A program made the translations under genes and the position numbers. From the NCBI RefSeq assembly GCF_002159945.1, contig NZ_NFJQ01000001.1, forward strand, positions 248,001 to 312,000: a DNA stretch of 64,000 nt, written 5' to 3'. A model generated the notes under the pieces. The model had not been told where the DNA came from. It was given only the letters and a program-made list of their open reading frames with translations, and did not search any database. This DNA is from Cloacibacillus sp. An23. Its GTDB lineage: Bacteria; Synergistota; Synergistia; Synergistales; Synergistaceae. This document shows positions 18,753 through 30,364 of this stretch, piece by piece; positions within the stretch are counted from its first letter, which is position 1; each line of letters begins with the position of its first letter.

Positions 18753-21362
18753 ATGAAAAAATCATTGAAATGCTTCATTGCTTTGATAACTACGGCAAGC
18801 CTCGTCTCCATATCAAGCGCGGCAGGCGCGGCCTCGTATGACGAGGGAGGCGGGAACGCCACAGGACTCGATTCGCTTGCGATAGGCATAGGAACGCTCG
18901 CATCCAACAGATACGCCAACTCCATCGGCTACTATGCACAGGCTACGGGAGAGTACAGCTCCGCATACGGAGTTTATGCAAAAGCGACAGGCAATTACAG
19001 CGTAGCAATCGGGCGTTACGTTACAGCAAGCGGCAGCGAAGCTATGGCGTTCGGAGGCAACAATACCGCAGCAAACGGAGAGTACAGTTTCGCCGGCGGG
19101 CGTGAGGCGATTGCGAACGGGAAGTACAGCACAGCTCTCGGAAACAATGTCAAGGCAGGCAGTATGTCAACCGACGAAGGCAACACCGCGATAGGCTACA
19201 ACGTAACGACCTCCGGAAGATACAGCACCGGCGTCGGACACAGCATAACAGTCGAAGGCATAGAAAGCTCGGCGTTCGGGCGCAACCTCAAGGCTACCGG
19301 AGATTACAGCCTCGCCGTCGGACATTCGTCAAGCGCTACAAATGAACGCAGTACAGCAATAGGATACAGTGCTGAGTCAACGGGCTCAGACGCCCTCGCC
19401 GTCGGGGTAAGTGCAAAGGCTAAATCAACGTACAGCGTGGCTTACGGTTATTACTCACAGGTAGGAGAGACGGCGGCAAACAGCGTTGCGGTTGGATACA
19501 GGGCAAGCGTGAGAGACGGAGCCGGCAACAGCTCCGCATTCGGCAACGAAGCGACCGTAGACCGAGCGTCTTCAAACAGTTTGGCCATCGGCTACAAGGC
19601 AAAGGTAAACATGGGGCTTACGAACGCTGTCGCGATAGGAAGCAACGCCGTCGCATCGGAGTCGAACACAATATCGATAGGCAGCAGCACCACTCAACGC
19701 CGCCTCGTCAACCTCATGGCAGGCAGGGCCGACACCGACGCGGTGAACGTGAGCCAGCTCAAAGGTTTGAACGACCTGCTCGGCGGTTCTACGCTTACTG
19801 GCGGTAAATGGGGCGAGAAGTTCAAAGTCGGCGAAGATGAGTACGACAGCGTAGCCGACGCGATATCGTCTCTCGCGGGCGGTTCCGACAACTCCGTCCT
19901 CTACGACGGCGACGATAAATCCGCCGTTACGCTCGGCGGTACGAACGGCACGACGATAGACAAGGTCGCGGCTGGAAATATCGCAAGCGGCAGTATGCAG
20001 GCTGTCAACGGCGGTCAGCTTTTCACAACGAATACCAATTTATCAAACCTCGGCGCAAGCATCGCTGACGCTTTCGGCGGAGATTTCAAATTTGAAAACG
20101 GAGCACTTACCGGCGGCATAACCTACGGAGATGAAACCACGATACAGGGCGCGTTCGACAGCATACGCGACGAGCTGGACAAGCTCTCCGAGGGCTGGAC
20201 GTTCAACCCTGTCGACGATTCTCAGCAGTCCGGCGGCGCGGGAACAGGCGACGGCGCTGGAACTCCTCCGGCATCTTCGACAATCAAACCGGGCGACAGT
20301 CTGACGGTCAATGCCGGCGACGATATCAATATCACGCAGAACGGCGACAAGGATTACACAATCAGCGTAGACCCGGCTCTGCGCGAGGAAATCGAGGAGG
20401 GCTACACAGCCGCCGACGACGCTCTGAAAATGGAGATAACAGAAGCATACAAGGATGCGGATAAAAAGCTCGAAGCCAGTATTACCGAAGCCTACCAACA
20501 GGCCGATTCAGAGCTGAAGGCAGGCATCGACAAGAACGCCGCGACGATTGGGGAGATCGGCTCCGTCCTTGGCGGCGCGGAGAACGGGTATAAAAAGCCG
20601 ATGTTCGACACGGTGACGGCAAACGATATAAACGTCGGCAAAATCAATATCTCCGGCTCCGGCATCAACATGGGCGGCGCGGATATAAATACCGGCGGCG
20701 GCAACATCGATATGGGCGGCGGCAGGATAACGAACCTCGCGCCCGGCGCGATAGCACCGGGAAGCACCGACGCTGTGACGGGCGGACAGCTCTGGGAGGC
20801 CTATAACCGCATGGACGACCTCGGCGAGCGCATCAACGTAGTCGGAGCGCACGCGGCGGCGCTGTCCGGCCTGCATCCGATACAGTACGACCCGTACGAA
20901 CCGACGACGCTTTCGGCCGCGGTCGGTGCGTACCGCGACGAGTACGCGGTCGCGGTCGGCGTGTTCCATTACGTGCGCGAGAACGTGCTCTTCAACATGG
21001 GCGCGTCGCTCTGCTCCGACGGCGACATAATGGGCCGCATGGGCGTGAGCTTCGCGGTCGGCAGGTCGTCCGACAAGCCGAAGGTGGCGGCCACGATAGG
21101 CGGCCTGCGCAAACAAGTGCTCGAGATGCAGAAGGAGCTCGAAGGGCTGCGCACCGCGCGCTCCGAGAACAAGGCGATAAAGGCCGAACTTGCCTCCCTG
21201 CGCGAGAAGAACGAAAGCAGCGAAAAAGCTCTGAGCGAACTGGCAACCCTGCGTGAAAAGAACGAACGCAGCGAAAAGGCCCTGCGCGAGAACGAAAAGA
21301 TAATGAAGCAGAACGCGGAGCTGATAAAGGAACTGATGAAGCGGTTGGAGGCGAAGAAGTAG
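18753..21362 (+). CDS. YadA-like trimeric autotransporter adhesin with post-anchor coiled coil
   Basis: 869 residues. Signal peptide of about 28 residues, then a head of some 14 YadA repeats (for example SIGYYAQATGEYSSAYG; residues about 40-310). Three neck/connector motifs follow: DAVNVSQL, MQAVNGGQL and DAVTGGQL. A coiled-coil/stalk region covers about 540-600, and the YadA anchor about 700-776 (LSAAVGAYRDEYAVAVGVFHYV to MGRMGVSFAVG). Unlike classical members, which end at the last barrel strand, this one continues for about 93 charged residues of predicted coiled coil with a 17-residue direct repeat (LREKNESSEKAL.., LREKNERSEKAL). That tail would lie in the periplasm. Outer-membrane homotrimer for adhesion. 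Confidence 0.9.
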   Translation: MKKSLKCFIALITTASLVSISSAAGAASYDEGGGNATGLDSLAIGIGTLASNRYANSIGYYAQATGEYSSAYGVYAKATGNYSVAIGRYVTASGSEAMAFGGNNTAANGEYSFAGGREAIANGKYSTALGNNVKAGSMSTDEGNTAIGYNVTTSGRYSTGVGHSITVEGIESSAFGRNLKATGDYSLAVGHSSSATNERSTAIGYSAESTGSDALAVGVSAKAKSTYSVAYGYYSQVGETAANSVAVGYRASVRDGAGNSSAFGNEATVDRASSNSLAIGYKAKVNMGLTNAVAIGSNAVASESNTISIGSSTTQRRLVNLMAGRADTDAVNVSQLKGLNDLLGGSTLTGGKWGEKFKVGEDEYDSVADAISSLAGGSDNSVLYDGDDKSAVTLGGTNGTTIDKVAAGNIASGSMQAVNGGQLFTTNTNLSNLGASIADAFGGDFKFENGALTGGITYGDETTIQGAFDSIRDELDKLSEGWTFNPVDDSQQSGGAGTGDGAGTPPASSTIKPGDSLTVNAGDDINITQNGDKDYTISVDPALREEIEEGYTAADDALKMEITEAYKDADKKLEASITEAYQQADSELKAGIDKNAATIGEIGSVLGGAENGYKKPMFDTVTANDINVGKINISGSGINMGGADINTGGGNIDMGGGRITNLAPGAIAPGSTDAVTGGQLWEAYNRMDDLGERINVVGAHAAALSGLHPIQYDPYEPTTLSAAVGAYRDEYAVAVGVFHYVRENVLFNMGASLCSDGDIMGRMGVSFAVGRSSDKPKVAATIGGLRKQVLEMQKELEGLRTARSENKAIKAELASLREKNESSEKALSELATLREKNERSEKALRENEKIMKQNAELIKELMKRLEAKK

Positions 21363-22494: not shown

Positions 22495-24615
22495 CTACTT
22501 CGGCGCTCCTACCGGCGTGCGCGCGCGGTCTTTAAGCTCGCCGCGCTTGCCGGCGTTCCACGAGGATATGCGCGTGAAATATCCCGTAACGCGCGTGATG
22601 CCGTCCACGTCCTCCGAGCCGCAGAGCTCGCAGTGGTCGCTAAGGCCGCGCTCCATGTGGCTGCATTCGTTGCATATCGTGAACTCGGGGCTGAAGGCCA
22701 CCTGAGCGTTCTCCGAATATTTGAAGGTCTTTATGACGAACGAGGCGAGCGCCCTCGGGTCGGGCTTGTGCTCGCCCATCCAGACGTGAGTGATGGCCCC
22801 GGCCTTTATCATCGGGTGCAGCGCCCCTTCGCGCATGACCTTGTCTATCGGGTCCTGCGCGAGCTTGTAGTTGAGGTGCGTGCTGTTCGTGTAGTATATC
22901 TCGCCGCTTTCGAGGTCGCCTTTGACGTATTTCTTCGCCTCTTCCGGGTAGGCGCGCAGGTCGAGCTTCGCGAAGCGCAGCGCCGTGCTCTCTGCGGGCG
23001 TCTGTTCGAGCACTATCTTGAGGCCGAGACGCTCGGAGAGCTGCTGGCACTTGAGGTCCATGTACTGTATGACGGCGCGGCCGAGCTTCTCCGCCTCCTC
23101 GCTCTCGTGGAGCTGGCAGCCGGTCATCGCCTGCACCATCTCGTTGAGGCCGAGGATGCCTATCAGGTGGCTCGCCTTGCGCATACGCAGATACGGCTCG
23201 TCGTCGTGCGAGACGCAGAGCGCGGCGAGCGGCCCCTTCTCGCCGAGGTCGAGTATGCTCTTTATGAAGGCGCGCTTCTGAAGGTGCGCTTTCGCCGCGA
23301 GCTCCATCTCCGCGTCGATTATGTCGAAGAGCAGCTCGTCGTCGCCCGCGGCCTTGTAGGCGGCGCGCGGCAGGTTCAGCGTGACGTTCTGCAGCGCGCA
23401 GTAGCGCATCTTCCACGGGTGCTTCGCCTCGTCGAGATCCTCCGGCGTCAGCTCGAAGGAGAGGCGGCAGCATTCGGAGAGCTTCGCGACGCCGCCGCGG
23501 TCGAATACGAAATAGGTGTTGCCTTTCTCCGACGAGAGAGTGCAGGCGAGGTTGAGGAACTCTTCCCAGCCATCTTCCTTGAAGAAGTAGTCGGTGATGT
23601 GGAGCAGCGGCTTCGGGAAGAAGAAAGGCTGCCCGCGGCTGTCGCCGCTCATGTAGACGTCGAAGAGCGCGCGCAGGAACATCTTCGCCTCGGGCGCGTA
23701 GTCGGCGTATGTCTTTCCGGTGAATTTGCCGCCAGGCCCTATAGCGGGCACGTCGCGGAAGTGGTTCGGGATTTCATAGTAAAGGTTGATGTCGGTGAAG
23801 GCGACCTGCCCGCCGCGTCCGCCCGCGAGCTGGTTGAACTCGAAGATGAGCTGCTGCGCGAGCTGGCGGTACTGCTCGTAGCTCCAGCCGACCGTGTAGG
23901 GCGCGAAGAACATGTTGACCGCGTCCCAGCCTATCGCACCGGCGAAGTGGTTCTGCAGCACGGAGGTCATCTTGAGCATGTGCGCGAGCAGCACGTCGGC
24001 GTGCTTCGCCGGGTTCGAGACGCTGGTTATCGACGGGATGTTGAGGCCGTAGCGCGCGGGGTAGGCGACGCTCTGCCCCGAGCAGTACGGGCGGTTCACC
24101 ATGCCGAGGTCGTGCAGGTGTATGTCGCCCTTCAGGTGCGCGTCTGCGACGTCCTTCGAAAAGACCTTCGTCAGCGCGTATTCCTTGAGCACCATCTCCG
24201 CGATCGAAAGGTTTATAGACTCGGGGTTGTGGCTCGTGTTGCTGTTTTCCTTGTTCCTATTGAACATCATCGTCTCGAGGTCGTGGACGGGAAGCCCTAT
24301 GCGCGAGTGGTCGGCGAGCTTCGCGTCGAGGCCGCGCTGGAACAGCTTGACGTTGACCATCTCGCGGATTATCGAGGTCGTCACTTTCGTGCGCCCGTAT
24401 TTGAGCAGCTCCTCCTCGACCTCGAGCGCTATGCTCTCCGCCGTCGCCGGATCTACGCCGGCCTCCACCATAAGCGCGTCGCGGATGCGGCTCGCGTCCC
24501 ACGGCGAGCGCTCTTCCTGAGCGAGCGCGTCCACCATCAGCGCGAGGTCGGTCGATTCCCCGCCGCCGCTGAAAAGCCGTTCCTGACGGCCGAATGTCTT
24601 TATCTCGTTATCCAT
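22495..24615 (-). CDS. nrdD: Class III anaerobic ribonucleoside-triphosphate reductase
   Basis: 706 residues. An N-terminal ATP-cone (residues about 5-95, allosteric control) precedes the ten-stranded barrel with NKENSNTSHNPE and HLHDLGMVNRPYCSGQS. A C-terminal zinc motif (CNECSHM..CELCG) is followed by RVTGYF with the radical Gly at about 678 and a tail SSWNAGKRGEL. Makes dNTPs without oxygen. Overlaps nrdR by 8 bases and is followed by nrdG, a complete anaerobic module. Confidence 0.96.
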   Translation of the reverse strand: MDNEIKTFGRQERLFSGGGESTDLALMVDALAQEERSPWDASRIRDALMVEAGVDPATAESIALEVEEELLKYGRTKVTTSIIREMVNVKLFQRGLDAKLADHSRIGLPVHDLETMMFNRNKENSNTSHNPESINLSIAEMVLKEYALTKVFSKDVADAHLKGDIHLHDLGMVNRPYCSGQSVAYPARYGLNIPSITSVSNPAKHADVLLAHMLKMTSVLQNHFAGAIGWDAVNMFFAPYTVGWSYEQYRQLAQQLIFEFNQLAGGRGGQVAFTDINLYYEIPNHFRDVPAIGPGGKFTGKTYADYAPEAKMFLRALFDVYMSGDSRGQPFFFPKPLLHITDYFFKEDGWEEFLNLACTLSSEKGNTYFVFDRGGVAKLSECCRLSFELTPEDLDEAKHPWKMRYCALQNVTLNLPRAAYKAAGDDELLFDIIDAEMELAAKAHLQKRAFIKSILDLGEKGPLAALCVSHDDEPYLRMRKASHLIGILGLNEMVQAMTGCQLHESEEAEKLGRAVIQYMDLKCQQLSERLGLKIVLEQTPAESTALRFAKLDLRAYPEEAKKYVKGDLESGEIYYTNSTHLNYKLAQDPIDKVMREGALHPMIKAGAITHVWMGEHKPDPRALASFVIKTFKYSENAQVAFSPEFTICNECSHMERGLSDHCELCGSEDVDGITRVTGYFTRISSWNAGKRGELKDRARTPVGAPK

Positions 24616-25084
24616 TGCGGTGCGCCTCCTTATCCTCCAAAAGTCTGGCTATCTCGTTCGTGAAGCTTGAGACGTCGGTGAATTCCCTGTAAACGGACGC
24701 GAATCGCACGTATGCGACTTTGTTGATTTTCTTGAGCTCGTCCGAGGCCATCTCGCCGAGCTGCGTCGTGGCGACCTCGCCCTGCCCCGAGGCTCGTATC
24801 TCCTCTTCTATGCGCGCCGCCGCCGCTTCAAGCGTGTCGAGCGACACCGGCAGCTTCTCGCAGGCGTGCTGGAAGCCGCGTATGAGCTTCTCCCTGTCGA
24901 ACGACTCGCGCCGTCCGTCCTTCTTGACGACCCAGAGGAAGCTCTTTTCCTCGAGCCGCTCGTATGTTGTGAAACGGTTCTGGCACTCTGGGCACTCGCG
25001 CCGCCTCCGGTTGACGCGTCCCTCGTCGGCGCTCCGCGTCTCTATGACCCTGGTCTCCGGCGCTCCGCACACGGGACATCTCAT
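24608..25084 (-). CDS. nrdR: Transcriptional repressor NrdR
   Basis: 158 residues. N-terminal zinc ribbon (MRCPVCG..CPECQNRFTTYE), then an ATP-cone domain from about residue 47 (VVKKDGRRESFDREKLIRG). It senses nucleotides with the cone and represses ribonucleotide-reductase genes. Start taken at the ATG 25084, which has GGAGGG upstream and gives the canonical MRCPxC N-terminus. Two NrdR boxes precede the gene, so it represses its own operon. Confidence 0.96.
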   Translation of the reverse strand: MRCPVCGAPETRVIETRSADEGRVNRRRRECPECQNRFTTYERLEEKSFLWVVKKDGRRESFDREKLIRGFQHACEKLPVSLDTLEAAAARIEEEIRASGQGEVATTQLGEMASDELKKINKVAYVRFASVYREFTDVSSFTNEIARLLEDKEAHRNG

Positions 25085-25101
25085 CGTCGGACCCTCCAAG
25101 C

Positions 25102-25152
25102 ACTACATGTAGTTCGCAGAAGTGATTATAACACTATATATAGTGTTGTAAA
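25102..25152 (-). promoter_or_regulatory. nrdR promoter with two NrdR boxes
   Basis: Minus strand TTTACA (25152-25147), 16-base spacer, TATAAT (25130-25125). Box 1, the perfect palindrome ACACTATATATAGTGT (25131-25146), fills the whole spacer. Box 2, ACTACATGTAGT (25102-25113), lies 31 bases further along, centre to centre, the helical spacing known for paired NrdR boxes. Binding would block the promoter directly. Confidence 0.88.
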
Positions 25153-25185: not shown

Positions 25186-25215
25186 TTGCGTCTTACCCGC
25201 CGTCGGTATTATAAT
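25186..25215 (+). promoter_or_regulatory. Promoter of the cobalamin riboswitch
   Basis: TTGCGT (25186-25191), 18-base spacer, TATAAT (25210-25215), about 20 bases before the aptamer. Confidence 0.6.
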
Positions 25216-25233
25216 CCAAAATAAGAAGATTGA

Positions 25234-25342
25234 CCGCGAGGTGCTCTCTCCGAGAGTCAAATCAGGGAATGCGGTGAGATTCCGCAGCTGTCACGCAACT
25301 GTGATGCTTTCACTAAAGCAGAGCCAGAACGCAGCCTCGCGG
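25234..25342 (+). ncRNA. Cobalamin (B12) riboswitch aptamer, orphan
   Basis: Closing helix CCGCGAGG (25234-25241) with CCTCGCGG (25335-25342) is perfect. Inside are the conserved AGGGAATGCGGTGAGATTCC block, the B12 box AGCTGTCACGCAACTGTGATGC-type segment and GAGCCAGAAC. The order and spacing match the cobalamin riboswitch. It is followed by its own terminator, but the next 1.6 kb on this strand has no gene: the first feature downstream is dsdA on the opposite strand. Confidence 0.9.
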
Positions 25343-25397
25343 CACGACGCATTGTTTCCGCGAACGACGGGAGAGTGCGGGCGCGGGCACCGGCGCG

Positions 25398-25433
25398 TCC
25401 CCTTTCGCGAATAGCGGAAGGGGATGTTTTTTG
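25398..25433 (+). terminator. Riboswitch expression-platform terminator
   Basis: Eleven-pair stem (TCCCCTTTCGC with GCGGAAGGGGA, one G-T pair), loop GAATAG-like, followed by TGTTTTTTG. Confidence 0.85.
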
Positions 25434-25545
25434 CCGCCTCCATGACATATCCGGGCACACGGGAGAAGCACAGCTCCCGCCACACCACACGAAGGGCGGA
25501 GCGCGCGACGCGCTCCGCCCATACTTTCACGCGCGGCAGAGAGCT

Positions 25546-26883
25546 TTACGCCAGGCGCGTCGCTATATATTCCTTCCTTATATCTTCGGGGACGAGGCGG
25601 CCTCCCGTCGCCCACGCGATGTGCGCAGCATTCTTCATTTTGTCCGCAAGGCCGTGTTTTTCTATGTACTCGCGCCACGCTTCCGCGCGCCCGAGAAGAG
25701 CGGGTCCTTCGAACGCGGCGCACGAGCTCGGCTCTATGAATATGTTTTCCGTCTCAAGCAGGTCGCGCATATATTCGTAGAGCTTCGCGTCGCAGAGCGT
25801 CATGTCGCCGGAGAGCAGCGGCTCCATAACGCGGCCGACGAAGCCCGAGGCGCGCCCGACGGCGAGGCCGTCCGCGTGCGTCAGCCCCGTCAGCCCTATA
25901 TCCTTGACCGCTATGCCGCTGTGCAGGCCGCTGGCCATGCCGAGCAGCATGCACGGAGCCTGCGTCGGCTCGACGAAGAAGCAGTGCACGGCGTCGCCGA
26001 AGACCTGCTTCAGCCCGAATGTCACGCCGCCCGGCGCTCCGCCGACGCCGCACGGCAGGTAGACGAAGAGCGGATGACCGGCGTCCGCAGTTACGCCGAG
26101 CGCCGCGAGCTGCGGCACAAGGCGCTTCGCCGCGACCGCGTAGCCGAGGAAGAGGTCTTTCGAGTTCTCGTCGTCTACAAAATAGCTCTTCGGGTCTGCG
26201 TCGGAGAGCGCGCGCCCCTGTTTGACCGCTTCGCTGTAGTCCGTCTCGTACTCGATCACTTTTACGCCGTGGCTGCGCAGCAGCGCCTTTTTCCACTCGC
26301 GCGCGTCGGCGGACATGTGGACGACTGCGTTGTAGCCTACGGCGGCGCTCATGATGCCTATGCTGAGGCCGAGATTTCCGGTAGAACCGACCTGCATCGT
26401 GTACTGTGAGAAAAATTTCCGAGCTTCGTCCGAGGCGAGCTTTTCGTACGAATCGCCGTCCCTGAGCAGCCCGTGCTCGAGCGCAAGCTCCTCCGTGTGT
26501 TTGAGCACCTCGTAGATGCCGCCGCGCGCCTTTATCGAGCCGGCTATCGGCAGGTCGCCGTCCATCTTCAGCAGCAGGCGGCCCTCGACGTCCGCGCCGT
26601 ACTTGCCGGCGAGGCGGCGCTTCATCGACGGGATCTCGCGCAGCTCGGACTCGATGATTCCGCGAGCCGCCGCCGTCTCCGGAAATTTCTTCATTATAAA
26701 CGGCGCGAATCGCGCGAGCCGCGCCTCCGCGTCGTCGACGTCCGCCATGGAGAGCGGCAGAGATCCGCGCGCGTCGTCGAATTTCTCAAGCTTCGGGTTG
26801 AGCCAGAATACCTCGCGCTCTTCGGCGAGAGCTTTCACCGCCGGGTTTTCCTCGACGAGCTTCTTGATCTGTTCCTTATCCAT
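25546..26883 (-). CDS. dsdA: D-serine ammonia-lyase (DsdA)
   Basis: 445-residue PLP enzyme converting D-serine to pyruvate and ammonia. The PLP lysine is in GSIKARGG at residue 118, the same position as in the E. coli enzyme. The phosphate-binding loop is QVGSTGNLGLSIG, and later blocks include YLPCGVGGAPGGV and FFVEPTQAPCMLLGM. ATG at 26883 preferred (GGAGG 8 bases upstream) over an earlier TTG. It stands alone, without a D-serine permease or DsdC next to it. A riboswitch-terminated transcript points toward its 3' end. Confidence 0.93.
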   Translation of the reverse strand: MDKEQIKKLVEENPAVKALAEEREVFWLNPKLEKFDDARGSLPLSMADVDDAEARLARFAPFIMKKFPETAAARGIIESELREIPSMKRRLAGKYGADVEGRLLLKMDGDLPIAGSIKARGGIYEVLKHTEELALEHGLLRDGDSYEKLASDEARKFFSQYTMQVGSTGNLGLSIGIMSAAVGYNAVVHMSADAREWKKALLRSHGVKVIEYETDYSEAVKQGRALSDADPKSYFVDDENSKDLFLGYAVAAKRLVPQLAALGVTADAGHPLFVYLPCGVGGAPGGVTFGLKQVFGDAVHCFFVEPTQAPCMLLGMASGLHSGIAVKDIGLTGLTHADGLAVGRASGFVGRVMEPLLSGDMTLCDAKLYEYMRDLLETENIFIEPSSCAAFEGPALLGRAEAWREYIEKHGLADKMKNAAHIAWATGGRLVPEDIRKEYIATRLA

Positions 26884-27039
26884 TTCCAACGCCTCCTCTT
26901 ATTGCTTATTTAAAAATTTCGCAGCATGACGTTATATTACAGCCCACGCGGCGGGCCGTCCACGCCGCGGACAGCCGGAGCGAAGCGCACTTTTCACGGA
27001 TTTCCGGCGCTTAATGTACCGCCGCGCTGGCTTGTGCGA

Positions 27040-27045: not shown

Positions 27046-27123
27046 GAAGTGTATTATTCTTTCCGCGTGCGGAACGCCGCGTAAAAGGATACGTGAAAAA
27101 GCTTGTTCAGGGAGGAAAGAATT

Positions 27124-27936
27124 TTGCGTATAGCAGTATTGATAAAACAGGTGCCGGCGGTCGATACCGTCAAGATAGACGAGAAGACCGGCACGATGAT
27201 ACGCGACGGCGTCGAGGCGGAGCTGAATCCGCTCGACCTTCACGCGGTCGAGGCCGCCGTCCGCATAAAGGAGTCGCGCCCCGAGGGCGAGGTCGAGATA
27301 ACGGCCGTGACCATGGGGCCGCCAGCCGCGCTCAAGGCGGTGCGCTACGCGATAGCGATGGGATGCGACAAGGGGCTGCTGCTTTCCGACAGGAAGTTCG
27401 GCGGCGCAGACACCCTCGCGACGGCGCGCACTCTCTCGCGCGCGCTGCTCAAGGCCGGACCGTTCGACCTGCTCTTCGCCGGAGAGCGCGCGACCGACGG
27501 CGAGACGGGACAGGTCGGCCCGGCCTGCGCCGCGCTGATGGGCGTCTCCGTGCTCTCATACGTCAGCGCTATAGACGAACTGACGGAGGACTGCGTCCGC
27601 GTCACGCGCGCGGTCGAGGGCGGCCACGAGACTGTCGAAGCTCCTCTGCCGGCGATAGTGATTCCCGTCAAGGAGATGAACATCCCTCGCCTCTGCACGC
27701 TCGGCGGCAAGCTGCGCGCTAAGGCCGCCGAGATACCGGCGGAGACGGCCGACGACCTCGGCATGGACGGCTCGGAGACGGGGCTCGCCGGCTCGGCGAC
27801 GCAGGTCGTGCGCGTCACATATCCGAAGGTGACGCGCCACGGGCGCAGGATAAACGCCGCGGACGGCCTGGAATCCGCGATAGACGAAATAATGAAAGTT
27901 CTTGAAGATAAAAACTGTTTGGAGGCGGCGATATGA
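27124..27936 (+). CDS. etfB: Electron transfer flavoprotein beta subunit
   Basis: 270 residues. Opens RIAVLIKQVPAVDTVKID and carries the AMP/FAD-site block FAGERATDGETGQVGP. The start is a TTG at 27124 with GGGAGGAA 6 bases upstream; an earlier in-frame TTG lies over that ribosome site. Forms a heterodimer with EtfA that passes electrons between an FAD dehydrogenase and another carrier. It is followed by etfA with an ATGA overlap and then a GlcD-type oxidase, so it likely serves that enzyme. Confidence 0.93.
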   Translation: MRIAVLIKQVPAVDTVKIDEKTGTMIRDGVEAELNPLDLHAVEAAVRIKESRPEGEVEITAVTMGPPAALKAVRYAIAMGCDKGLLLSDRKFGGADTLATARTLSRALLKAGPFDLLFAGERATDGETGQVGPACAALMGVSVLSYVSAIDELTEDCVRVTRAVEGGHETVEAPLPAIVIPVKEMNIPRLCTLGGKLRAKAAEIPAETADDLGMDGSETGLAGSATQVVRVTYPKVTRHGRRINAADGLESAIDEIMKVLEDKNCLEAAI

Positions 27937-28934
27937 ACGGCGGCGAAGTCTGGACATTGGCGGAGGTGCGCGGCGGGGAGATACATCCCGTGTCGCGCGA
28001 ACTGCTCGCGTGGGGACGCGAACTCGCCGACGCGCTCGGCGCGCCTCTCGCGAGCGTCGTTATGGGAAGCGGCGTCGCCGAGGCGGCGCCTCTGCTCGCG
28101 GCCTACGGCGCGGACAAGGTCTACGTCGCCGACGAGCCGGAATTTGAGCATTTCAAGGCCGACATAGCCTGCGCGGCGCTCGCCGAACTCATAGAGGAAT
28201 ACAAGCCGTCGATACTGATAGCATCGGCCACGACGCAGGGACGCACAGTAATGCCGATGCTCAGCGCGCGCCTCGGCTGCGGCCTCACCGCCGACTGCAC
28301 GGAGCTCGCCATCGACCCGGAAAGCAAGCGCCTCGTGCAGACGCGCCCGGCGATAGGAGGCAACGTCATGGCCGACATCAAGACGAAGGGGCGCGACCCG
28401 CAGATGTGCACCGTGCGCCCGAAGTCGAAGCGCCCGCTCGCGCCGGACGGCTCGCGCGCCGTCGAGCTCGTGCGCTTCACTCCCGCCTCCGACATTATGC
28501 GCTCTATGATAAAGTTCATCGGCTTCGACGCGGAAAAGAGCGTCGGCCTGCCGCTGCAGGAGGCGGAAATAATAGTCGCCGGCGGCAAAGGAATGAAAAA
28601 CGCCAAAAACTTCGCGAAGCTCGAAGAGTTGGCGGAGCTGCTCGGCGGCACCGTCGGGGCATCGCGCATGGCTGTTGATCTCGGCTGGGCCCCATACTCG
28701 GCGCAGGTCGGACTCTCAGGCAAATCCGTAACGCCGCGCCTCTACCTCGCTTTCGGAATATCCGGCGCGGTGCAGCACATAGCGGGAATGTCGGGAGCGG
28801 AAACGGTGATAGCGGTCAACACCGACCCCGAAGCGCCGATATTCCGAGTCGCCGACCTCGCGGTGCAGGGCGACGCGATGGAAGTGCTGAACGCGCTCGT
28901 CTCCGCCGTCAAAAAATTCAAGGGCGTGAAATAA
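27933..28934 (+). CDS. etfA: Electron transfer flavoprotein alpha subunit
   Basis: 333 residues. Its C-terminal FAD domain has VGLSGKSVTPRLYLAFGISG, QHIAGM and AVNTDPEAPIF. There is no N-terminal ferredoxin domain, unlike LctC of the electron-confurcating lactate dehydrogenase. Overlaps etfB by 4 bases and shares its last base region with the next gene, so all three are translationally coupled. Confidence 0.94.
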   Translation: MNGGEVWTLAEVRGGEIHPVSRELLAWGRELADALGAPLASVVMGSGVAEAAPLLAAYGADKVYVADEPEFEHFKADIACAALAELIEEYKPSILIASATTQGRTVMPMLSARLGCGLTADCTELAIDPESKRLVQTRPAIGGNVMADIKTKGRDPQMCTVRPKSKRPLAPDGSRAVELVRFTPASDIMRSMIKFIGFDAEKSVGLPLQEAEIIVAGGKGMKNAKNFAKLEELAELLGGTVGASRMAVDLGWAPYSAQVGLSGKSVTPRLYLAFGISGAVQHIAGMSGAETVIAVNTDPEAPIFRVADLAVQGDAMEVLNALVSAVKKFKGVK

Positions 28935-30364
28935 TGCCGCGATACGGAAAGATAACGAAGGAAATATACGGCGAGCTGCTCGCCGTCACAGGCCCCGGCG
29001 GCGTCACGGCGGACGAAGAAGCGCTCGACAATTACGCGTGGGATCAGGCGGGACGCGTCTGGGGACACATGCCCGAGGCCGTAGTCAAACCGGCTGACAC
29101 CGAGCAGGTCTCCAAGATAATGAAAATAGCGAGCCGCGAGCGCATCCCGGTCACCCCGCGCGGCGCGGGCAGCGGACTCAACGGCGGCGCCGTGCCGCGC
29201 GCCGGAGGCATCGTCCTGTCGCTCGAGCGCATGAACAGGATACTTGAGATAGACCCGGTCAACCGCGTCGCCGTCGTCGAGCCGGGCGTCGTCACCAACG
29301 ACCTATGCCGCGCCGCGGCGGAGCGCGGCTTCCTCTACGCCGGATATCCGATGAGCACGGAGACGAGCTTCATCGGAGGCAACTTCGCCACCAACGCTGG
29401 CGGCGGCAAGGTCATACGTTACGGCAGCACGCGCCGCCACATCCTAGGCGCGGAAGTCGTGCTCCCCTCCGGCGAAGTGCTCGAGCTGGGCGGCCGCTAC
29501 CGCAAGGACACGTGGGGCTACAGCCTGCTCAGCCTTCTCGTCGGCAGCGAAGGCACGCTCGCCGTAGCGACGAAGCTCATAGTCAACCTTGAACCGAAAC
29601 CCGGCAGGACGGTCAACCTTCTCGCCTGCTACCCGACGGTCGAACAGCTCGTAGAAAGCGTCGCGAAGGTCATCGGCTCGGGACGGCGCATAATATCATG
29701 CGAATTCATGGACAGGAAGCTCGTAAAATACACTACGGAATACCTCGGCTGCACTCTGCCCGAGCAGGAACGCAGCGAAGCGTACCTTCTGATACAGCTC
29801 GAGGGCGACACCGACGAGCAGCTCGAAGACGGCTATGAGACCGTGGGCAAGATATGCCTCGCGGGCGGCGCGTTCGAAGTATTCGTCGCCGAGAGCCGCA
29901 CCGACTCCGCGGCGATGTGGAACGTGCGCCAGAACGGCCTTGAAGGAATGCGCGCAAAAGACCCATACGCCTGCTCGTCGGGCGACCTCATGGTGCCGCT
30001 CTCAGCGGTGCCCGAGATGCTGCGCCGCATCAAAAAAATCGCGGAAGAATGGAACGTCGAGATCGGCATAATCGCGCACATCGGAGACGGCAACATCCAC
30101 CCTATACCGCTCAAGCCCGACGGCATGAGCCCCGAAGAATGGGCGCGCTACGCCGAAGACTTCTTCGCCGCGCTCATCCGCGAGGCGATAGCGCTCGGCG
30201 GAGTCGGAAGCGGCGAGCACGGCGTAGGCCACGTCAAGCAGAAGATACTGCTCGAGAACAAAACGCCCGCAGAGCTCGAAGTGCTGCGCGGCGTCAAAAA
30301 AGCCTTCGACCCCCTCGGCATAATGAACCCGGGCAAAATGTTCTCCCCGCTCGAAGAGGATTAA
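28934..30364 (+). CDS. GlcD/LctD-type FAD-linked 2-hydroxyacid oxidase
   Basis: 476 residues. An N-terminal PCMH-type FAD-binding domain (VTPRGAGSGLNGGAVP; SFIGGNFATNAGGGKVIRYG) is followed by a substrate domain with HIGDGNIHP and the C-terminal GVGSGEHGVGHVK and FDPLGIMNPGKMF. Family members oxidise D-lactate, glycolate or D-2-hydroxyglutarate. The gene order etfB-etfA-oxidase is that of lctBCD, so electrons probably go to the ETF. The substrate is open: lactate and 2-hydroxyglutarate are the leading options. Confidence 0.9.
   Translation: MPRYGKITKEIYGELLAVTGPGGVTADEEALDNYAWDQAGRVWGHMPEAVVKPADTEQVSKIMKIASRERIPVTPRGAGSGLNGGAVPRAGGIVLSLERMNRILEIDPVNRVAVVEPGVVTNDLCRAAAERGFLYAGYPMSTETSFIGGNFATNAGGGKVIRYGSTRRHILGAEVVLPSGEVLELGGRYRKDTWGYSLLSLLVGSEGTLAVATKLIVNLEPKPGRTVNLLACYPTVEQLVESVAKVIGSGRRIISCEFMDRKLVKYTTEYLGCTLPEQERSEAYLLIQLEGDTDEQLEDGYETVGKICLAGGAFEVFVAESRTDSAAMWNVRQNGLEGMRAKDPYACSSGDLMVPLSAVPEMLRRIKKIAEEWNVEIGIIAHIGDGNIHPIPLKPDGMSPEEWARYAEDFFAALIREAIALGGVGSGEHGVGHVKQKILLENKTPAELEVLRGVKKAFDPLGIMNPGKMFSPLEED

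Follow-up and report, generated by a model that had tools for sequence, protein, structure and literature searches.

The gap between nrdR and dsdA in the genome of Cloacibacillus sp. An23 contains a cobalamin riboswitch that most likely is a recent stray copy, because its closest relative shares the genes but not the switch. The element combines an aptamer with a terminator, is followed by no sense gene and is absent from the sister species and the outgroups. With moderate confidence, it is taken as a stranded attenuator that arrived in the nrdR-dsdA gap of this lineage without a downstream gene. The locus was analysed within a stretch of 64,000 nucleotides (the window), and its features are as follows.

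22495-24615, minus strand: nrdD, class III (B12-independent) ribonucleotide reductase (PF13597)
24608-25099, minus strand: nrdR (PF22811, PF03477)
25131-25146, no strand: perfect NrdR box of the nrdR promoter, located between this gene and the riboswitch
25186-25215, plus strand: putative riboswitch promoter, read from the sequence (-35 TTGCGT, 18 nt spacer, -10 TATAAT)
25222-25353, plus strand: cobalamin aptamer (RF00174), short form, most of the peripheral domain absent
25359-25372, plus strand: candidate antiterminator strand, pairing with 25398-25409 (5' arm of the terminator) in the nascent RNA
25375-25390, plus strand: possible L13-type hairpin GTGC-GGGCGCGG-GCAC, 3' of the aptamer, from inspection only
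25395-25432, plus strand: intrinsic terminator, 14-pair stem (25395-25427) followed by a T run
25494-25520, no strand: perfect 12-bp palindromic hairpin from a repeat search, in the stretch from the riboswitch terminator to the 3' end of dsdA
25546-26889, minus strand: dsdA, PLP-dependent D-serine ammonia-lyase (PF00291), convergent with the riboswitch transcript
27103-30364, plus strand: operon of etfB, etfA and an FAD-linked oxidase (PF01012, PF02913, PF01565)

Elsewhere in the window, at 18753-21362, a large plus-strand ORF resembles a trimeric autotransporter adhesin on inspection, with head repeats and a C-terminal region.

The aptamer and its expression platform

The Rfam cobalamin model was searched against the window with cmscan. 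RF00174 is matched at 25222-25353 of the plus strand over its full length (model positions 1-189), with 45.8 bits against a gathering cut-off of 31.5 and an E-value of 2.7e-8 (64-kb window, 4227 families). The match is therefore not due to chance, and the B12 aptamer of the preliminary description is confirmed. The closing helix P1, also part of that description, is perfect over 8 bp (25234-25241 with 25335-25342, read from the sequence), and the fold has a z-score of -3.0. The B12 box, named there as part of a complete aptamer, is non-canonical (AGCCAGAACGCAGC) and one base shorter than the usual AGYCAGGANACCNGC. The aptamer loop reads TCACG in place of the usual CCCCG.

A genome-wide search (2.9 Mb, 99% complete) reveals three cobalamin riboswitches, of which that in the window scores lowest. 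The other two are located upstream of the clusters btuB - btuFDC - exbBD - tonB and cbiK - btuCDF - cbi, whose gene names were assigned by similarity and context. An edit-distance scan over three conserved blocks counts five departures in the window aptamer, including the deletion in the B12 box. The same scan gives 0 to 7 departures for 73 other aptamers of the family Synergistaceae, 14 of which have at least 5. Judged by these blocks, the window aptamer is diverged, yet inside the range of family aptamers that precede sense genes. The RNA is predicted to bind a cobalamin.

The plus-strand promoter that had been proposed has a perfect -10 element (TATAAT, 25210-25215), which places the predicted RNA start at about 25222, the first position of the aptamer model match. 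The -35 element TTGCGT is weak, with a match in 3 of 6 positions only, and for this reason the promoter at 25186-25215 is missing from the list of a consensus promoter scan. The riboswitch is presumably transcribed from here. The proposed strong intrinsic terminator was recovered as well: its 14-pair stem and T run at 25395-25432 provide the expression platform of a cobalamin riboswitch, and the hairpin alone amounts to -25.4 kcal/mol. Most pairs of the candidate antiterminator have probabilities of 0.67-0.90 in an RNA ending at 25413. This pairing is not significant in comparison with shuffles, neither in duplex energy (752/2000) nor in pair probability (18/150), and is only suggestive. The pairing of the possible L13-type hairpin differs from the MFE fold prediction. 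The 12-bp palindrome further downstream is possibly the terminator of dsdA.

Genes behind cobalamin riboswitches in the Synergistaceae

The riboswitch starts at 25222 on the plus strand and is directed at the 3' end of dsdA, which a codon-usage gene finder calls on the minus strand (25546-26889). The first plus-strand gene past the riboswitch is etfB at about 27.1 kb, and none of the plus-strand ORFs opposite dsdA or between the terminator and dsdA matches a Pfam family. Both the orientation and the lack of a plus-strand gene for 1.6 kb are as had been stated earlier. The locus thus shows the geometry of an antisense riboswitch, which adjoins its target at the 3' end, is transcribed from the opposite strand and has no nearer sense gene.

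As a yardstick, the DNA behind cobalamin riboswitches of the family was analysed in 73 further cases. At five loci, frame and start errors of the gene finder were checked again with ORF listings or Pfam; the genes there are nrdD (L241), aconitase (L286), a DUF819 protein (L255), an ORF with an AAA-lid domain (L284) and btuB (L208). In this sample, which is not random and consists mostly of higher-scoring matches plus all obtainable short ones, every riboswitch but one has a sense gene no more than about 600 nt behind it. The exception (L218) has an aptamer of 31.3 bits, which is below the cut-off, and its gene starts 742 nt on. Since nearly every riboswitch of this sample has a nearby sense gene, the gene-less arrangement of the window is exceptional within the Synergistaceae.

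Two of the surveyed loci are described here in their own right. The riboswitch of L286 (215-379), from the relative G006, is located directly upstream of the aconitase gene. At L208 (2859-13109), a single cobalamin riboswitch precedes a continuous series of genes that starts with btuB and a second gene and goes on with btuFDC, exbB, exbD and tonB.

History and possible source of the element

The sister species, Candidatus Caccocola faecipullorum (G001, same contig as L093), keeps the gene order nrdD - nrdR - dsdA - etfB - etfA - oxidase; the proteins from NrdD to EtfA are 88-96% identical. The DNA identity to the window is 85% in dsdA and 87% across nrdR. No cobalamin aptamer is found in the nrdR-dsdA gap of the sister, which comprises 107 bp beyond the shared NrdR-box stretch as against about 400 in the window. 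Six further relatives (G029, G015, G021, G027, G009 and G034) encode no dsdA at the site; nrdR is followed by etfB, in G021 with an extra stretch of up to 0.9 kb between them. These six outgroup nrdR-etfB loci contain no cobalamin match even at E<=1. By the gene order of the relatives, etfB is the ancestral neighbour of nrdR. The presence of dsdA at the site in the sister and its absence from the six outgroups point to an insertion into the nrdR-etfB gap that is common to both species of the genus Caccocola. The nearest dsdA homologues outside the genus are mostly from Lachnospiraceae.

As the switch is missing from the sister, despite the shared genes, and from the outgroups, the riboswitch would have been gained in this lineage alone, or it would have arrived with the dsdA insertion and been lost from the sister, in a genus sampled with two species only. 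An arrival with dsdA from Lachnospiraceae was considered and rejected, with no cobalamin aptamer near the dsdA loci of the sister and the 11 next closest. A mobile origin was rejected as well: no phage or plasmid match and no convincing target-site duplication were found, and 60 relatives, phages and plasmids contain no close copy of the riboswitch segment. A decayed riboswitch in the gap of the sister was not persuasive, the best local match being an 11-base piece of a hairpin (AGCGGAAGGGG) that 8 of 300 shuffles reach on one strand; on the other strand, the best match is reached by 37 of 300.

The preliminary description had suggested comparing the synteny of related genomes and had named a B12-transport gene kept directly behind the riboswitch as contrary evidence. 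The comparison found the same gene order without the riboswitch in the sister, nrdR-etfB without it in the outgroups, and no such transport gene. A B12 gene is present at this site in none of the relatives sampled, and in no genome sampled is the riboswitch what is left of an ancestral B12 gene here.

A stranded riboswitch would probably have arrived by rearrangement or duplication, as a unit of promoter, aptamer and terminator. Binding of B12 would stop its RNA at 25432, at a length of about 210 nt. In the absence of B12, a share of the polymerases would continue past the 12-bp palindrome (25494-25520) into the 3' end of dsdA, in antisense. Such read-through at low B12 may occur, yet is probably unselected; a read-through without a selected target is favoured because the sister does without the switch and the enzyme has no known link to B12.

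A speculative source is the leader of btuF. In several relatives, a short cobalamin riboswitch precedes btuF (L210-L217). In the genome of An23, btuF is located behind the btuB unit and has no such short leader. Of the 73 riboswitches, the four most similar in sequence to the window element include three btuF leaders (E ~1e-4). A rearrangement that joined btuB and btuF would have displaced the short leader and left a stranded element, which would explain both the missing leader and the btuF-like matches. The short riboswitches of btuF operons (e.g. L213, L214 and L215, which are among the best matches) resemble the window element in their short aptamer without a large peripheral domain, followed by a terminator. 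They differ in that their B12 box and loop are canonical and btuF starts no more than about 130 nt away; the window element deviates in the box, contains a P2-like hairpin and is not followed by a gene. The weak similarity and the P2-like hairpin, which is absent from btuF leaders, count against this origin.

P1, the fold (z -3.0) and the terminator look intact, which counts against stranding, since long neglect would not leave them so. A recent gain under selection is conceivable, with two species of the genus sampled.

Regulatory alternatives and their meaning

A functional antisense riboswitch on dsdA, as known for Listeria pocR, is doubtful. At low B12, antisense RNA from read-through and collision would lower dsdA; at high B12, termination would free it. 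The geometry is of the described type, at the 3' end and on the opposite strand (PMC9943018), and the strong terminator has an alternative pairing that is mutually exclusive with it. Among 10,959 cobalamin riboswitches from across the bacteria, 190 are in a predicted antisense arrangement; these candidates were listed by geometry in a 2023 survey, before which only two antisense riboswitches had been described (PMC9943018). The pocR riboswitch of Listeria monocytogenes likewise joins a cobalamin aptamer to a terminator next to the 3' end of a gene and is transcribed on the opposite strand in the direction of this gene; its target is a regulator of the B12-dependent use of propanediol, and other Listeria share the arrangement (PMC9943018). 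The window element, predicted from the sequence, differs in that the arrangement is not kept in a relative with the target: the sister has dsdA in the same place without a riboswitch, which removes the support for a conserved antisense control of dsdA. DsdA, a PALP-family enzyme, has to our knowledge neither a link to B12 nor a dependence on it, and the antiterminator pairing is no better than shuffles in duplex energy and modest in pair probability. From the earlier proposal of an orphan switch giving antisense RNA to dsdA at low B12, the orphan status and the antisense geometry, rare in the family, are retained, and the dsdA of the sister speaks against the regulation. The switch can be called a regulator only on experimental proof.

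The leader of a B12-related gene may also have been inserted here together with that gene, which was deleted since. Every other surveyed riboswitch of the family that scores above the cut-off has a gene behind it, so that the one in the window presumably once had one. No relative has such a gene at the site, however, and the plus-strand ORFs between the terminator and dsdA match no protein family. A lost downstream gene, the dull alternative of the preliminary description, is thus unlikely; a lost sense gene conserved in relatives was looked for at the site and discarded.

The proposed link between B12 and the choice of ribonucleotide reductase is found in relatives. Of 15 genomes of the order that lack nrdR, 12 belong to the same family; 7 of the 15 encode nrdD, and 6 of these 7 have a cobalamin riboswitch in sense before it (L287, L288, L289, L291, L292 and L293 from G019, G036, G030, G016, G031 and G018, respectively). 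Conversely, the 19 other nrdR-bearing loci of the family show no cobalamin riboswitch within 1.5 kb of nrdR. NrdR and the B12 riboswitch look mutually exclusive in the family, though the genomes with nrdD riboswitches fall in few genera and independent events may be few. Probably, B12 supply governs nrdD in part of the family, there in place of NrdR. The same logic was proposed earlier for nrdDG of Desulfovibrio (PMC545781). The nrdD leaders of Synergistaceae and the nrdDG leaders of Desulfovibrio and Desulfuromonas (PMC545781) resemble the window element in being close to class III reductase genes. They precede nrdD in sense, whereas the riboswitch of the window is divergent from nrdR-nrdD: it occupies the opposite strand, the RNA made from it runs away from nrdR, and a perfect NrdR box serves nrdR itself. 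A second reductase of the genome is class II-like, and its gene has two near-match NrdR boxes 32 bp apart (L222, 14426 and 14458). Control of reductase choice by B12 through the divergent nrdR-nrdD promoter is nevertheless very unlikely at this locus.

Equally improbable is a B12-controlled excludon, in which a long RNA made without B12 would silence dsdA in antisense and continue as the mRNA of etfB, etfA and the oxidase. If true, it would couple B12 supply to a D-serine / lactate-type electron-transfer switch, in one species only.

The least credible reading is a trans-acting RNA that titrates an ANTAR antiterminator: although Rli55 and EutX, which bind EutV, are likewise riboswitches without a coding gene behind them and the genome encodes one ANTAR protein, the sole ANTAR gene adjoins a glutamine-synthetase-like gene, and the EutV decoy raised in the preliminary description is not supported, given the lack of EutB in the genome and of ANTAR-type hairpins (paired A1/G4 hexaloops) in 25200-25700.

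The element of the window is probably a young, orphan case of the antisense cobalamin riboswitches already described. It illustrates that antisense geometry can stem from recent stranding, as the sister keeps every gene and has no switch. Should dsdA in fact be under its control, the element would count among antisense switches as a very young one, in which the origin of such a switch could be followed.
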